Origin: Paraoerskovia marina DSM 21750
Lineage (GTDB): Bacteria > Actinomycetota > Actinomycetes > Actinomycetales > Cellulomonadaceae
DNA length: 64,000 nt
NCBI RefSeq assembly: GCF_000701465.1
Contig: NZ_JNIY01000003.1
Location: 496,001 to 560,000, forward strand
Direction of reading: 5' to 3'
Under the pieces are notes generated by a model. It was not told where the DNA came from, ran no database searches, and saw nothing but the letters and a program-made list of their open reading frames with translations. Each line of letters begins with the position of its first letter. Position 1 is the stretch's first letter. Positions 13,791 to 60,653 of this stretch are shown piece after piece. The translations under genes and the position numbers were made by a program.

Positions 13791-16700
13791 CTAGATCCGT
13801 CGACGTCGCCGTGAGACGAGAACCCCCGCGGCCCAAAGGAGCGCGCCCGCTCCGGCGAGCACGCCACCGAGCGTGGCGACCGTCCAGGGGAGGTCGACGG
13901 GGATCCCCAGGTGCACGGTCAGGCCGAGGATCCGCGACAGGCCCCAGGGCAGGATCATCATCTGGTCGTTCCACGCGGTCAGCGTCGTCTCGAGTCCGAC
14001 CAGCCCCACCGCGACACCTCCGACGACGAGCGGCGCGGCGACGGCGAGCAGCACGCGGCCCACCGCCCCGGCGCGGCCGATACCCAGTCCCCGCATCGCC
14101 CACGCGGCGGCGAATAGCACCCAGCAGAACGCCGCGACCGCGACAGTGACGTACACGGTGCGCGCGACGGGCTCCGCCCACAGGCCGTACCAGTAGCCGC
14201 CCGGGCCGGTCGGGACGAGGGCGACCATCAGCACCACCGTGCGCAGGACGGCCGCGCCGCCCACGGCACCGGCGAGGGCGAAGGCGTCCCGCCCACGCAG
14301 GCTCGCCCACAGGACACCGACGAACAGCGCCCATGCACCGAGCACGAGGGCGAGGTGCACCCAGGACAGGGCCCACGTGTACGCGACGCGGCTGAGCACC
14401 AGGGCGGCCGCGGGCACGGCCCAGACCAGCACGCGGTCCGTGCGTCCGGCGTCGACGGCGAGCTCGTGCACCCGCCACGGGCGCGTGGTCCCGATCCACA
14501 GGGCGCGCAGGCCGACGCCGCCCGGCAGCCCCGTCCGTGCGAGCAGCCGCTGTCCACGTGAGGTGCCGAGTGCGAGGCTGAGCACGAGAAGGAGGCCCAG
14601 GACGCGGGCGACCCATGCCACCGCGTGGTCCCGCTCGGCCCGCTCGACCCCGAGGTCCGCGGCGTCGAACGTGTACGCGGGCAGGTAGACGTTCTCCCCG
14701 TACGTGTCGACGTGGTGCGCGCGCGAGACCTCGTACGCGTCCCGTGCCTGCGCCCAGGCGGCGCGGGCGTCGGGGTCGGCGGTGTCGAGCCACCGGCCGT
14801 GCTGCAGGAAGACGTCGCGGTAGTCCGCGAGGACCGTGAACAGGTCCACCTGGTAGTCGAGAGCGGCGAGGAACTCGTCCCTGAGCTCGGCGTCGCGCCA
14901 GGTGGCTGGGTCGGTGCCCGCGACCAGGTCTCGCATCTCCTCGGACGTGGCGACCGCCTGGTGCCCCTCGGCCAGCGCCTCGTCGAGGTCGTCGCCGACG
15001 ACGGAGGAGATCGAGTCGAGCGCCGCGGCGTCCCCGGAGAGGATGTCCCACTCGAAGATCCACATCATCGGTGGTGGTTCGAGCCCCAGCGCCTTGGTCT
15101 GGTACTGGGCGAACGGCCCGATGTAGAGCCCGTCCGTGATCGCGTCGCGCGACATCGCCATCGCCTCGCCGATCGCGGCGACCGTCTGCGGGTCCTCGGA
15201 GAACGTGCTGTAGGCCCAGGCGGCGGTGATCTCGCCGGGGTCGACCGTCGGGTCGGCGGCGACACGCGCGGACGCGTAGGTGTTGAGCTCGTAGAGCTCC
15301 CAGAACCCGGTCTTGCCGTCGAAGATCATCGGGCCCGCCTTGGTGGGGCCGCCGCTCTGCGGCCAGGCCCAGACCCCCTCGACGTTCGGGTTGGTCTCGA
15401 GGTAGTGCTGCATCGCCTCCGCGTAGGCCGAGCCGAGGTCGTTCGGCAGCGCACCGAAGCCCTCGAACTCCCGCCGGGACTGCATCTCGACGATGCGCCG
15501 CTGGTCGCCGATCTCCAGGGTCGGGTTCAGGGGCAGCCACGAGTAGAAGTCGCCCGCGACGTGCTTGGTGGAGACGACGAGCGCGGGGGAGTCGAGCCCG
15601 TCGAGCACCGCCGAGTAGGACTCGGGGTTCGTGTGCATGTCCCCGACGGCCCCGACGCCCACGGACCACGAGCGGAAGATGACGTCCTTGCCGTGCTCCT
15701 CGGCGACGTCGGTGAACGCCGTGAGCATCGCGCGGACCGACTCCTCGTCCGTGACGGCGAGCTCGGACCAGTAGTCCCAGCCGTCCTGGTCGTAGATGCT
15801 GCCGGCCTCGCCGATGCGCACCATGACGCCGTCGATCGCGGGCATCGAGGTGAAGAGCTCGTCGAGGCCTGCGGAGTACACGTCCCAGAACTCGGGGTCG
15901 GACGTGTCCCACCCGTTCTCGTCGAGGTACTCCTGGAGCGGGGTGGTCAGGACCAGCATGTCGGTCGCGAGGTAGACGTCCATCCCGATCTCGTCCGCGT
16001 CCTGCCACATCTGCCCGAAGGTGGCCTGCATGGCCTCGGCGCGGGCGACGTGCTCGTCGTCGGGCCCGTAGACGGCCGACCCGTCCTCGACGCCGGAGAA
16101 CGTCAGGTACTCGAGGAACCCGCCCGCGACGAACCCGGTGTAGCCCTGGGCGAGCCGCCGCTTGAGATAGGTGTCGAGCTCGTCGGCGTGGACCGCGAGC
16201 GCCTCGGTGTCGACGTACGGAGGGTCCGCCAGGACCGCGTCGGAGAATCCGCCCGCGTTGTGCGAGTAGGGGTCGCCCTCCATCCACGTCTCGGCGTCCG
16301 GGACGACGCCGGTGGCCCCGAGGGAGACGAGGCGCATGTCGAGCGTGGGGGTCTGGACGGTGCCGTCGACGTCCGCGGGGACGGGGTCGGTTCCGGTCCG
16401 TATGCGGTCGGCGAGGTCGTAGATGCCGCGGGCGGCCCCGGTGGCGTCGGCGGACTCGAGGAGCCAGCCGTCACCGACGGTCGTCAGGCGGTAGGCCTCG
16501 GTGGGGTCCGAGCTGTCGGGCGTACCGGTGACCAGGTCCTCGATCGGTGTCTCGGTACTGACGAGGAGGGTCCCGGCGCCGGGCGCGGCGTCGTCCGACG
16601 GCGTGCTGGTTCGGGTCGTCGCGGTGACGCCGCGCGCGTCGAGCACGGTGAGGAGCGTGTCGGCGGCGGTACGGACGTTCTCGTCGTCGGGGATCTCCAC

Positions 16701-16910
16701 CCGCTCGACCGCGGGAGCCGGGACCGCTGCGGTCACAGGGGCAGCCGTCGGGTCCTCGGGCGCGGGGCTGACCTCGGTGGTCTCGATGCCGAGGAAGCCG
16801 GAGAGCTGGACGGCGGTGGCCAGCCCGAGGGCGAGCAGGACGACCGCCGCGATCGCGGCGGTCCAGGGGCGTCGCCGGGTGCGGCGTGAGGCGTCGTCGG
16901 TCACGGGCAT
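13791..16910 (-). CDS. Large membrane-anchored glycoside-hydrolase-like protein
   Basis: A 1,039-residue protein. After a short basic tail, residues about 17-40 form one membrane segment (AAIAAVVLLALGLATAVQL). Residues about 60-180 resemble the small N-terminal domain of GH67/GH20 enzymes. About 185-650 look like a TIM-barrel region similar in style to alpha-glucuronidases: TLDMRLVSLGATGV, GYTGFVAGGFLEYL, DGVMVRIGEAG with a candidate catalytic Glu near 362, and VEGVWAWPQSGG. A helical region follows, then about seven membrane segments from about residue 735 to the end, finishing RRRRRI. The barrel should be outside the cell. I chose the ATG at 16910; a GTG at 16931 is also possible. No exact family or substrate can be named from sequence alone. 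Confidence 0.65.
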   Translation of the reverse strand: MPVTDDASRRTRRRPWTAAIAAVVLLALGLATAVQLSGFLGIETTEVSPAPEDPTAAPVTAAVPAPAVERVEIPDDENVRTAADTLLTVLDARGVTATTRTSTPSDDAAPGAGTLLVSTETPIEDLVTGTPDSSDPTEAYRLTTVGDGWLLESADATGAARGIYDLADRIRTGTDPVPADVDGTVQTPTLDMRLVSLGATGVVPDAETWMEGDPYSHNAGGFSDAVLADPPYVDTEALAVHADELDTYLKRRLAQGYTGFVAGGFLEYLTFSGVEDGSAVYGPDDEHVARAEAMQATFGQMWQDADEIGMDVYLATDMLVLTTPLQEYLDENGWDTSDPEFWDVYSAGLDELFTSMPAIDGVMVRIGEAGSIYDQDGWDYWSELAVTDEESVRAMLTAFTDVAEEHGKDVIFRSWSVGVGAVGDMHTNPESYSAVLDGLDSPALVVSTKHVAGDFYSWLPLNPTLEIGDQRRIVEMQSRREFEGFGALPNDLGSAYAEAMQHYLETNPNVEGVWAWPQSGGPTKAGPMIFDGKTGFWELYELNTYASARVAADPTVDPGEITAAWAYSTFSEDPQTVAAIGEAMAMSRDAITDGLYIGPFAQYQTKALGLEPPPMMWIFEWDILSGDAAALDSISSVVGDDLDEALAEGHQAVATSEEMRDLVAGTDPATWRDAELRDEFLAALDYQVDLFTVLADYRDVFLQHGRWLDTADPDARAAWAQARDAYEVSRAHHVDTYGENVYLPAYTFDAADLGVERAERDHAVAWVARVLGLLLVLSLALGTSRGQRLLARTGLPGGVGLRALWIGTTRPWRVHELAVDAGRTDRVLVWAVPAAALVLSRVAYTWALSWVHLALVLGAWALFVGVLWASLRGRDAFALAGAVGGAAVLRTVVLMVALVPTGPGGYWYGLWAEPVARTVYVTVAVAAFCWVLFAAAWAMRGLGIGRAGAVGRVLLAVAAPLVVGGVAVGLVGLETTLTAWNDQMMILPWGLSRILGLTVHLGIPVDLPWTVATLGGVLAGAGALLWAAGVLVSRRRRRI

Positions 16911-17040
16911 ATCGTAGGTGACCTGGATCACTGGTCAGGACCGGGTCTCGGGGTGGGGGATTCACGGCGCCTGCGGTCGGTAGGCAGGCCCGCTGTCGCG
17001 TCCGGGGGATGGTGCGGCCGTGCCGGGGCGGCCGGCCGGG

Positions 17041-17089
17041 CCTGTGAAAGATGTAAAGACCTGTGAAAGATGTAAAGACCTGTGAAAGA
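17041..17089. repeat. 19-base tandem direct repeats (iteron-like)
   Basis: CCTGTGAAAGATGTAAAGA occurs perfectly at 17041-17059 and 17060-17078, with a third partial copy (CCTGTGAAAGA) at 17079-17089. The array ends eight bases before the ATPase start codon and is strikingly AT-rich for this genome. It could be an operator or a binding site for the adjacent Orc1/Cdc6-like ATPase. The preceding 16932-17040 shows nothing else recognisable. Confidence 0.85.
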
Positions 17090-17097
17090 CCGGGCGC

Positions 17098-18220
17098 ATG
17101 GCCCCGAAGAATCCGTTCAAGCCCACCGCAGGCGCACGCCCGCCTGTCCTGGCCGGACGCCAGGACGACCTCGACCTGATCGACGAGTCCCTGGACAACG
17201 GCCCCGGCGCGCCCGGGCGCCTCGCGCTCGTGACCGGCGCACGTGGTGTCGGCAAGACGGCGATGCTCGCCGCCATTGCCGACCTCGTCGCCACCAAAGC
17301 GCAGTGGGTCACCATCACCGAGACCGCCCACCCCGGCCTGACCGAGCGACTGCGCGAGACCGCACTACGCCGTGACGCCGCGACCACCCACGATCCTGAC
17401 GTCGGACGCATCACCGGCATCACCCTGCCCGGGAACATCGGATTGCATCGCGAGGCGCCCAGGCAACCCGCCGAGACGATGCGCACCGCACTCGTGCGGC
17501 TCCTGGACACCCTCGACCGCTACGACACCGGCCTGATCGCGACCATCGACGAGGTCCAGGGCGGTCGCCTCGACGAACTACGCGAGGTCGCGGCCACGTT
17601 CCAGCACCTGACCGGCGAGGGTCGCAACCACGCACTGATCCTGGCCGGGCTGCCCTCCGCAGTCTCCGACGTGCTCAACGACTCCGTGCTGACCTTCCTG
17701 CGCCGAGCCGAGCCCATCACCTTCAGCGCGGTCTCGCCGGACGACGTACGCGCAGCCCTGGCCGACCCCATCGAAGCCTCCGGGCGCGCGATCGACGCCG
17801 ACGCCCTCGAACTCGCCGTCGAAGCCACCGGCGGCTACCCCTACCTGATCCAGCTCGTGGGCTACCAGGTCTGGCGGCGCGCGCGCGACGAGCACATCGA
17901 CGCCGACGCAGCGCGCGCGGGCATCGCCGCCGCGCTCACACGCCCGGGCGCGACCGTCCACGACGCCGCCCTGGCGGACCTGTCCAACGTCGACCGCTCG
18001 TTCCTGATAGCCATGGCCCGAGACGACGGCCCCTCCCGTGTCGGCGACGTGCGCGAACGCCTGGGCCGGGACTCGAACTACGTCACCGTGTACCGCAACC
18101 GCCTCATCGAGGCTGGGGTGATCGAGCCTGCCGGGTACGGACTTGTGACGTTCTCCCTGCCCTCCATGCGCGACCACCTGCGCCAGCACGCCGCGCACCA
18201 GCACAGCCCCTGGGGGCTGA
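17098..18220 (+). CDS. Orc1/Cdc6-like AAA ATPase with C-terminal winged helix; own stop codon missing
   Basis: Walker A GARGVGKT is at residues 47-54, Walker B IDE near 150-152, a sensor-like LILAGLPS near 178-186, and a lid and C-terminal winged helix about 275-365 (RVGDVRERLGRDSNYVTVYR, then GLVTFSLPSMRDHL). Homology-like sequence ends near 18205. The frame has no stop there: it stays open to 19077, running 775 bases over the methyltransferase gene as arginine/serine/proline-rich shadow sequence. A one-base shift would end it at the TGA at 18218-18220, the end given here. So the 3' end is either frameshifted, truncated, or read into its neighbour. The function is unknown; such ATPases occur scattered in actinobacteria. 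The adjacent direct repeats suggest DNA binding. Confidence 0.7.
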
Positions 18221-18302: not shown

Positions 18303-19931
18303 ATGGCCACCCCGGTTCCTGATCCCACCGTCCCCGTCAGCTCGGACGCCGCGCTCGTCGCGGCGCTGCGCGACGACCTCGGCTCGGCCGACTTCACGGT
18401 CGACGGCGTCGAGTCCCTGCTGGGTCCGCTCGCCGCCGCGGCGCTCGACCGGGAGCAGCCGTTGCCGGCGCGCCGGGTCACGCGCACCGTTCTCGACGGC
18501 GGCCGCGGGTCGGGGACCGAGCGGCAGGCGGCCCTCACCGCGCTGTTCCTCCTCGGCGACGACGTCGCGGCCGCCACGGTCGAGACGGCTCTGCCCTCGG
18601 TGGGGCTCGACGGTGCGGTGCGGCTCGGTCTGGTGGAGCGCGCAGGCGGCGGCCCGGAGGACGCGGTCCGCGCCCGCGTCGAGCTGCGCCCGTATGCCGC
18701 GACCGACGCCGAGGGCCCGGTGTCGTGGTGGCTCGCCTCTGACCTGCGCGAGCTCCAGACGGGGCGCCGTCTGCGCGCCGACCACGTGCTGGGCGCCGGC
18801 GGGGCGGCCGCGACGCTCGCGCAGGTCACGGTGCGCACTCCGGTCGACCGGGTCCTGGACCTCGGGACCGGTTCGGGGATCCAGGCGCTGCACGCCTCCC
18901 GGCACGCGTGCCACGTCGTCGGGACGGACATCTCGCGTCGCGCGCTCGGGTTCGCCCGGTTCAACGCGCTGCTCGACGGCGTCGACCCGGGGGTGGTCGA
19001 GCTCCGCGAGGGGTCGATGCTCGAGCCGGTCGCCGACGAGCTGTTCGACCTCGTGGTGTCCAACCCGCCCTTCGTGATCACGCCCCGCGCCGGCCGCGGG
19101 TCGGGAGCACAGGCCGTCCCTGACTACGAGTACCGCGACGGTGGCCAGGCGGGGGACGACGTCGTCCGCTCCCTGATCACGGGCGTCGGGTCGGTCCTGG
19201 CCCCGGGCGGCGTGGCGCAGATGCTCGGCAACTGGGAGCAGCGACGCGGCGAGGACTGGACCGAGCGGGTCGGTGCGTGGCTCGAGGAGTCGGGGCTGGA
19301 CGGCTGGGTGATCCAGCGCGAGGCGCTCGATCCCGCGGAGTACGCAGAGACCTGGATCCGCGACGGCGGCAGCTCGCGGGAGCGCGACCCTGCCGCGTGG
19401 GACGCCGCCTACGGCGCGTGGCTCGACGACTTCGCGGCCCGCGACGTCGAGTCGGTCGGCTTCGGGATCGTCACCCTGCGCCGTCCCTCCGAGGGTCGGA
19501 CCGGAGGGCGGCTGCGGCGACTGGAGCAGCACACGGGTTCGATCCGGCAGCCGCTCGGCGACCACATGGCGGCCTCGCTGGCCGCGCACGACTGGCTCGC
19601 CGCGCGCGACGACGCCGCGCTGGCGGCCGCGCACCTCGTCGTCGCGGGGGACGTCACGGAGGAGCGCTACCTGACCCCGGGCGCCCAGGACCCGAACATC
19701 GTGATCGTGCGGCAGGGCGACGGGCTCGGGCGCGGCATTCAGGCGTCGTCTCCGCTCGCCGCGCTGGTCGGGGTGTGCGACGGAGAGCTGGGTGTCGGGC
19801 AGATCGTCGCCGCGCTCGCCGCGCTCTTCGAGGTCCGCGCCGACGAGCTCGCCGCGGAGCTGCTGCCCGCCGTCCGGAACCTCGTCCGCGACGGCTTCCT
19901 GGCCCCGCTTCCGGCGGATCCCCGGGCCTGA
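18303..19931 (+). CDS. Class I SAM-dependent methyltransferase (NPPF type)
   Basis: A 542-residue protein. The central domain has the SAM-binding motif VLDLGTGSGIQALHAS (about residues 182-197) and the catalytic VVSNPPF (about 249-255), the motif of N-methyltransferases such as HemK/RlmG types that modify Gln side chains or rRNA bases. The N-terminal 150 residues and C-terminal 200 residues are extra domains seen in actinobacterial members. The ATG at 18303 follows GAGGATGGAGG. Substrate not determinable here. Confidence 0.85.
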   Translation: MATPVPDPTVPVSSDAALVAALRDDLGSADFTVDGVESLLGPLAAAALDREQPLPARRVTRTVLDGGRGSGTERQAALTALFLLGDDVAAATVETALPSVGLDGAVRLGLVERAGGGPEDAVRARVELRPYAATDAEGPVSWWLASDLRELQTGRRLRADHVLGAGGAAATLAQVTVRTPVDRVLDLGTGSGIQALHASRHACHVVGTDISRRALGFARFNALLDGVDPGVVELREGSMLEPVADELFDLVVSNPPFVITPRAGRGSGAQAVPDYEYRDGGQAGDDVVRSLITGVGSVLAPGGVAQMLGNWEQRRGEDWTERVGAWLEESGLDGWVIQREALDPAEYAETWIRDGGSSRERDPAAWDAAYGAWLDDFAARDVESVGFGIVTLRRPSEGRTGGRLRRLEQHTGSIRQPLGDHMAASLAAHDWLAARDDAALAAAHLVVAGDVTEERYLTPGAQDPNIVIVRQGDGLGRGIQASSPLAALVGVCDGELGVGQIVAALAALFEVRADELAAELLPAVRNLVRDGFLAPLPADPRA

Positions 19932-51565: not shown

Positions 51566-51817
51566 GGTCTCGACAGGCTCGACCTACGCCGGTTGAGGTT
51601 GTCGAAACCAGGCTCGCCCTACGGTGGTTGAGCTTGTCGAAACCAGGCTCGACGCACGCTGGTTGAGCTTGTCGAAACCGGTCTCGACCTTCGCCGGTTG
51701 GACGGGTCTCGACAGGCTCGACCTACGGTGGGTGGTTTGGTCTCGACAGGCTCGACCGACGTTGGTTGAGCTTGTCGAAACCAGCATCGATCCACGCCGG
51801 TCGAGCCTGTCGAGACC
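51566..51817. repeat. Array of about 19-base palindromic repeats
   Basis: The gap between two convergent stop codons is almost filled by copies of one family. GGTCTCGACAGGCTCGACC or close variants lie at 51566-51584, 51705-51723 and 51739-51757. The opposite orientation, GGTTGAGCTTGTCGAAACC or variants, lies at 51591-51609, 51626-51644, 51661-51679, 51764-51782 and 51799-51817, with a fragment at 51680-51689. Each contains TCGA on both sides of a short centre. Neighbouring opposite copies could pair into long hairpins and terminate both genes. Confidence 0.88.
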
Positions 51818-51825
51818 GGTCGACG

Positions 51826-59852: not shown

Positions 59853-60653
59853 CTAGGCAGACAGGAGCGCGCGGAGGTCAGCCTCGGCCCGCGTCGGAGT
59901 GCACGGCCGGCAGCCCAGCGCGGTCCACTCGCGCACGAGACGCGGTTCGTCGCGCATCAGGCCCCAGCCGCGGCGCACCAGCGTCAACGGTGGCTTGCGG
60001 CGCTCGCCGAGGTCCCGCAAGAGGCGGAACCAGGCGGTGACGACGGCGGGTCGGGCCAGGCAGATCGCATCCGCCAGCACGTCCTCGGAGCGCAGACGGT
60101 CGACGATGTGCGCAGCGAAGATCCCCTCTGCGAGCACGAGCGGCGCCTCGCTGACGTCCAACCGGGTCGTCCCGGTACGGCGCGAGCTCGGGATGTCGTA
60201 GATCGGAATGTCGGCCTCGCCTGTTGTGCACAGTTCGACGAGCGCCGCCACGGCCGCGTCGGCGTCCCAGCTCTGCGGGTCGTCCCAGTCGACGATCCCG
60301 AACCGCTTCGGCATGTCCGGATGGTCCTGGTCCCGGTAAAACTCGTCGAGCTCCATGACGGGGATGCCGAGGCGACGCGTCAGAGACGTCTTGCCCGACC
60401 CGGAGGCGCCCGTCATCAGGACGACGCGTGCACGAGGACGGCGGACGTGCTCGGGGAGGTCGAAGAGCGTCTCGACGGGCTCGACGGGCGTCTCGACGGG
60501 CTCGACGGGCGCGCTGGTCGAGCTTGTCGAGACCTGGCGTGGCGCCTCGACGGGCGTCTCGACGGGCTCGACGGGCGCGCTGGTCGAGCTTGTCGAGACC
60601 TTGCGTGGCGTCTCGACGGGCGTCTCGTCGGGACCGGTCGGTGTGGTCGACAT
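59853..60653 (-). CDS. Uridine-kinase-like P-loop kinase with repeat-derived N-terminus
   Basis: A 266-residue protein. The kinase core begins around residue 73, with P-loop GASGSGKT at 82-89, ELDEFYRDQDHPD, WDDPQSWD and an LAEGIFAAH Walker-B-like strand, all typical of uridine/phosphoribulokinase family enzymes. Residues 1-62 are unlike the family: two 22-residue units starting VSTSSTSAPVEPVETPVE occupy 19-40 and 41-62. They are encoded by sequence akin to the intergenic palindromic repeats at 51.6 kb. The ATG at 60653 may therefore be a late extension of an older start; no good internal ATG lies between the repeats and the core. Confidence 0.82.
   Translation of the reverse strand: MSTTPTGPDETPVETPRKVSTSSTSAPVEPVETPVEAPRQVSTSSTSAPVEPVETPVEPVETLFDLPEHVRRPRARVVLMTGASGSGKTSLTRRLGIPVMELDEFYRDQDHPDMPKRFGIVDWDDPQSWDADAAVAALVELCTTGEADIPIYDIPSSRRTGTTRLDVSEAPLVLAEGIFAAHIVDRLRSEDVLADAICLARPAVVTAWFRLLRDLGERRKPPLTLVRRGWGLMRDEPRLVREWTALGCRPCTPTRAEADLRALLSA
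60468..60599 (-). repeat. 66-base tandem repeat inside the kinase gene
   Basis: Two units of 66 bases (60534-60599 and 60468-60533) each contain GGTCGAGCTTGTCGAGACC on the plus strand (60582-60600 and 60516-60534) and GTCGAGCCCGTCGAGACG-type sequence on the minus strand. Both parts match the family seen at 51566-51817. The length is a multiple of three, so the reading frame is kept. Confidence 0.85.

Follow-up and report, generated by a model that had tools for sequence, protein, structure and literature searches.

BldC, a winged helix-turn-helix (wHTH) regulator of Streptomyces, binds head to tail and cooperatively to 9-bp direct repeats that occur in variable number in promoters, with one protomer on each 9-bp repeat, according to the report on it (PMC5859096). 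A second report (PMC11963761) counts RdfS, Xis and Cox among the wHTH proteins that form filaments. Among ATPases that carry a winged helix, the archaeal Orc1/Cdc6 initiators bind origin DNA. Here we describe a gene in which a direct-repeat array of the 9-bp type directly precedes the reading frame of an ATPase with a predicted C-terminal winged helix. The gene lies in a 64-kb stretch of DNA that we refer to as the window. We propose, with a probability of about 0.62, that the array serves this gene as its operator and that the encoded ATPase binds there to regulate its own expression. The features on which the argument turns are as follows.

17041-17089, forward strand: direct-repeat array and proposed operator, a 19-bp repeat present 2.6 times (repeat scan and unit alignment).
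17098-18220, forward strand: AAA_16/STAND-like ATPase with a C-terminal winged helix (Pfam, structure prediction and the list of open reading frames).
17236-17259, forward strand: Walker A motif GARGVGKT, residues 47-54, with G47, G50, G52 and K53 invariant in 78 aligned sequences.
17533-17553, forward strand: Walker B motif, residues 146-152, with D151 and E152 invariant in the 78 aligned sequences.
17833-17841, forward strand: GxP motif, G246-x-P248, both residues conserved in at least 90% of sequences.
18073-18111, forward strand: residues 326-338, which the predicted structure marks as the recognition helix of the winged helix.
18218-18220, forward strand: TGA earlier taken as the stop codon of the ATPase gene, out of frame.

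The tandem repeat has a period of 19 and 100% matches between copies, and it ends 8 bases before the ATG at 17098. Its unit has a G+C content of 7/19, against roughly 71% in the surrounding region. No further copy of the 19-mer is found in the window with up to three mismatches (none is expected from 100 shuffles) or in the 2.95-Mb genome with up to two. A preliminary description of this DNA had reported an AT-rich 19-base repeat in 2.6 copies eight bases ahead of the ATG and had remarked that it stands out in the genome; period, copy number, gap and AT-richness were all confirmed. A better reading of the 19-base repeat is nevertheless a row of five TGT(G)AAAGA units, which, when aligned on TGT, start at 17043, 17052, 17062, 17071 and 17081 and thus follow one another in steps of 9, 10, 9 and 10 bp; the opening units are TGTGAAAGA and TGTAAAGACC. 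In a chain scan the window array gives p 0.001 for 19/20-bp steps and p 0.087 for 9/10-bp steps, and it falls short in the latter test since a single base distinguishes one half-unit from the other. From its position we infer that the array overlaps the promoter; a simple scan of 16850-17250 returned no sigma-70-like promoter. Elsewhere in the window, tandem blocks with interspersed palindrome-like units at 51566-51824 and 60480-60632 (GGTTGAGCTTGTCGAAACC; 66-bp repeat, 96% matches) resemble REP-type elements.

The protein encoded behind the array matches AAA_16 in Pfam (E 5e-11), and every one of the 78 sequences in the alignment does so too. The archaeal-ATPase profile PF01637 is matched at E 0.001 by 16 of the 78 members, the window protein not being among them, and nSTAND1 scores 24.5 bits with the window protein, under its cut-off of 27.1. 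NCBIfam gave no match for the protein and PHROGs a single matching family, of unknown function. The PADLOC models of anti-phage defence gave weak matches only (best E 0.0027), none of them convincing, and lend no support to a defence system. The AlphaFold2 model, built on the 78-row alignment (pLDDT 91.8), places a winged helix at the C-terminus. Its top full-length fold is 2QEN (Z 24.4, 3.5 Å, 311 residues), followed by 2FNA (Z 23.5, 3.2 Å, 303 residues), by the Orc2 structure 1w5t (Z 22.1, 339 residues) and then by NB-ARC domains of NLR proteins; ranking by Foldseek E-value places Cdc6/Orc1 at ranks 1-4. The conservation of G246 and P248 points to STAND, whose signature is a GxP motif. Members of the Orc1/Cdc6 family carry the Orc-type lid motif rather than the STAND GxP. 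Given the invariant Walker A and B residues and the conserved GxP motif, the protein is best called a STAND/Orc-like ATPase. It is encoded as a solo gene, and its fold, AAA+/STAND-like with a winged helix at the C-terminal end, is predicted with confidence. The AAA_16 match and the predicted structure agree with the preliminary description, which had seen an AAA ATPase ending in a winged helix. Its label 'Orc1/Cdc6-like' holds for the combination of AAA+ domain and winged helix and for the match to 1w5t, but not for the best full-length folds, which are 2QEN and 2FNA.

The same description had the gene end at 18220. The TGA found there is out of frame, and the ATPase frame stays open to 19077, overrunning the methyltransferase gene (start at 18303) and extending ~285 codons past the end of homology, which stops near residue 367-374. 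As the TGA comes directly after a run of five G (18212-18216), the lack of an in-frame stop in the window gene may reflect either a true frameshift or an assembly error, both of which are possible.

We compared the upstream regions of 166 homologous loci with a resolvable start, which were reduced to 142 non-redundant ones by removing, before any counts, short upstream regions, a locus at a contig end (L033), upstream regions that were nearly the same as another (below 25 differences in 84) and proteins shorter than 200 aa. Partial matches beginning past query residue 30 were left out, and doubtful start assignments (e.g., L144, L155, L156 and L166) were kept in the set. Significant arrays with 9/10-bp steps were found for 80 of the 142 homologues (chain search, p 0.02, 140 bases upstream), and the same search returned no significant array for 62. 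The control steps 7/8, 11/12, 12/13 and 13/14 gave 6, 4, 4 and 3 arrays among the 142, and control upstream regions carried arrays in 1 of 19 cases for the methyltransferase and 1 of 62 for the window ORFs. The letters of the repeats differ, as in the AT-rich arrays TTTACGAAA (L084), GACTCACAA (L074), GTTTCACC (L139), GCTATTTCT (L044), AATAAGAAAG (L095) and TACTTAGAA (L106). The preliminary description had suggested looking for the 19-mer in relatives; of 200 family genomes searched, the 199 besides the source genome lack a 16-base core of it (at most one mismatch), and a common 19-mer motif in relatives was dropped. A lack of any repeat upstream of homologues, which would have spoken against that description, was not what we found; repeats are present there, but the 19-mer is not shared. 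The letters of the repeat thus mostly vary between homologues, and the 9/10-bp spacing and the place before the start are kept.

Over dinucleotide shuffles (n=142), the 4-mer repeat signal before the start has a mean z of 2.79 at each of lags 9 and 10, of 1.37 (lag 18), 2.20 (lag 19) and 1.21 (lag 20), and of a weak 0.3-0.5 at lags 27-30; for lags 5-8, 11-17 and 21-26 the value is close to zero. By position, the mean z for lags 9 and 10 is 3.0 at -60 to 0, 2.6 at -120 to -60 and 0.65 at -180 to -120; elsewhere, the first coding bases and the region after the stop included, it is 0.1-0.6. The 281 links of 78 arrays have a mean step of 9.55 bp. A regular alternation of 9- and 10-bp steps was considered and dropped, as 110 of 203 neighbouring steps are equal, which is about chance. 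Direct arrays were found in 2 of 15 distant homologues (<33% identity) versus 78 of 127 nearer ones, and inverted repeats (p cut 0.03) in 5 of 15 versus 11 of 127, all of these being small numbers. At six loci (L014, L022, L023, L024, L027 and L132), most of them in the distant subfamily, long inverted repeats take the place of direct arrays ahead of the start.

If the ATPase binds its array, its recognition helix might be expected to follow the letters of the repeat. We compared the two over all arrays that passed p 0.02 with at least three units, the window array being added by hand. Given ATPase-domain similarity, the similarity of recognition helices (residues 326-337) correlates with that of repeats (partial r 0.133, permutation p 0.003, with permutations that ignore phylogeny). 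Repeat similarity exceeds 0.7 in 46% of the 54 pairs of helices with 9-12 of 12 identical residues, pairs that are also closer overall, and 1-6% of pairs share repeats in the other helix-identity bins. In an unbiased segment scan the helix came second to residues 29-40 and was insignificant scan-wide, and the winged helix as a whole shows no correlation with the repeats (p 0.74). This weak correlation is no more than suggestive of an ATPase that reads its own repeats through the recognition helix. Its weakness leaves some room for a different reading, by which another host factor binds the arrays, or the arrays act as RNA or curved DNA, and the ATPase is not the binder. We consider this unlikely. 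Each copy has repeats with letters of its own, a variation that a shared host factor would hardly tolerate, and the ATPase has a predicted winged helix of its own. Moreover, A-tract curvature is at odds with a signal that is absent at lag 11 and equally strong at lag 9.

Each of four array-bearing genomes that we checked has its array at the ATPase gene it belongs to and nowhere else. Close matches to the array patterns of three genomes (G344, G783 and G930) occur only ahead of their own ATPase genes, and the five extra matches with two mismatches in G344 equal the control count. In another genome, three TACTTAGA units in 10-bp steps lie between other genes (G793:C2:73931-73959; L194, from 1532) with no ATPase nearby. 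The same unit also stands ahead of the ATPase in a related genome (L106), and the orphan array is possibly a remnant. Pairs of paralogues within a genome that both have arrays (n=11) show a mean array similarity of 0.51, against 0.41 for all pairs, with 1 of the 11 above 0.7. Orthogonality between paralogues was dropped, since their arrays differ no more than those of random pairs and show no avoidance.

At E 1e-3, 40 of 150 family genomes have a homologue; at the stricter E 1e-40 the count is 86 of 396 for the order and 17 of 396 for the phylum, with up to four copies in one genome. They are solo genes on chromosomes, where many of them lie, and in varied plasmid contexts. The source genome has two more relatives, one distant and one broken; the broken copy, at G000:C3:85900-88500 (L131), consists of pieces that are 37-47% identical, has an internal stop codon and shows no visible array upstream. 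The window gene is located on a 1.27-Mb contig amid ordinary genes, including those for an H+-pyrophosphatase and the methyltransferase. At the methyltransferase loci of 18 relatives, neither the ATPase nor its left neighbour is seen in the stretch compared (0 of 18), which places the window gene in a variable stretch. That neighbour, at 13791-16931 on the reverse strand, encodes a large membrane protein with a weak, below-cut-off match to the glycoside hydrolase 67 C-terminus. Only two relatives were found in the viral collection IMG/VR. The sole phage match, MT837995.1 (L191, labelled 'Bacteriophage sp.'), is a distant homologue amid helicase- and phosphatase-like genes that look bacterial by eye; it reads as a bacterial contig, and a phage origin was dropped.

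Matches were also found in 101 of 72,556 plasmid records. In the ten plasmid copies viewed, the ATPase gene has differing neighbours, except that a Brevibacterium plasmid (L072, NZ_CP093444.1) and a plasmid filed under Bacillus subtilis (L073, CP123774.1) share their downstream gene order; the latter is possibly mis-assigned, from a mixed culture source. In principle, the array could be a centromere-like or incompatibility-like site, with a solo ATPase that regulates itself and also segregates or counts its DNA. ParR/parC arrays serve in the segregation or counting of the DNA that carries them. Several direct repeats adjoining an ATPase gene, repeat sequences that diversify between copies, homologues on plasmids as well as chromosomes, and the orphan array without an ATPase gene would all suit such a site. 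We nonetheless hold it to be quite improbable. The repeat signal is confined to the 120 bases before the start, as in an operator, and does not recur after the gene, and many copies are chromosomal solo genes. Furthermore, ParA/ParB or ParA genes are present in the same stretch on two of the ten plasmids viewed, and those plasmids have no obvious need of the array for segregation.

The preliminary description had likened the pairing of repeats and ATPase to an iteron-type origin of a plasmid or integrative element, with an Orc1/Cdc6-like initiator. Repeats do adjoin the ATPase gene, and Orc1/Cdc6 proteins are among its best folds, as noted above. An iteron plasmid origin, however, has initiator and iterons on the replicon that they drive, and the long contig and ordinary surroundings of the window gene do not fit that arrangement. 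Neither a replication gene nor an integrase or transfer gene is conserved beside the ten plasmid copies; the few viral relatives, the presence of up to four copies per genome, several with different arrays, and a GC-skew with no clear turn at 17 kb point the same way. We therefore regard an origin as highly improbable. The autoregulatory operator, which the earlier account had offered as an equal possibility, is supported by the conserved spacing and pre-start position and by the restriction of the arrays checked to their own gene.

For the operator we envisage the following mechanism. A 9-10-bp grid of direct repeats is what head-to-tail packing of winged helices would need, and on this basis ATPase subunits are proposed to dock through their winged helices on successive units 9-10 bp apart and so to form a head-to-tail row that keeps to roughly one side of the double helix. 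The assembled, presumably cooperative ATPase would cover the promoter and start region and set, most likely by repression, its own expression, and its ATP state may control assembly. Recognition helix and repeat letters would drift together, so that each copy acquires a private sequence at a fixed packing distance. As to the wider cellular role of the ATPase, a sensor or stress switch is a guess. A bolder extension, which we think doubtful, is that the whole family forms ATP-controlled head-to-tail filaments in which 9-10-bp packing is fixed and the code is free. Each gene would then move about as a self-contained unit, ATPase together with private address, co-resident paralogues would work without cross-talk, the unit may also serve in solo segregation, immunity or copy control, and the distant subfamily would appear to have shifted to inverted-repeat operators in the same place.

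Should binding be confirmed, every genome would provide a protein together with the site that it binds. Dozens of such protein-DNA pairs would make up a natural library that could serve in decoding how winged helices choose their sequences and possibly as orthogonal regulators. The operator reading also offers a testable role for a solo ATPase that is common in Actinomycetota, is annotated only as 'ATP-binding protein' and appears to be unstudied; the window gene is a member of this family. Our search found no literature on arrays before this gene family, with thin coverage of subscription papers and preprints, and within the literature searched an operator of fixed spacing and free sequence appears to be new.

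How does this locus compare with the systems known? IniR, a mycobacterial STAND regulator, has an SSO1545-like ATPase domain and is likewise an actinobacterial DNA-binding regulator, but it has 818 residues with MalT-like and LuxR-like domains and regulates iniBAC; the term 'direct repeat' has no occurrence in the text searched (PMC5760070). The closest full-length folds, SSO1545 (2FNA) and PABY2304 (2QEN), have the same order of ATPase, lid and winged helix at 12-20% identity to the window protein, and we found no literature on repeats or autoregulation for either. Archaeal Orc1/Cdc6 proteins (1w5t, 2qby, 1fnn and 2v1u) share the AAA+ domain plus C-terminal winged helix, whereas the window family has a GxP-type lid motif, an array only before its own start and no origin context. 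In DNA geometry the nearest likeness is to BldC, with a winged helix and direct repeats of the 9-bp type in both cases, binding by the ATPase being our conjecture. BldC is a 68-residue, MerR-like, wHTH-only protein with no ATPase; the window protein is an AAA_16 protein of at least 374 aa in which the winged helix is fused to the ATPase, and here, unlike for BldC, the repeat sequence differs from one homologue to the next.
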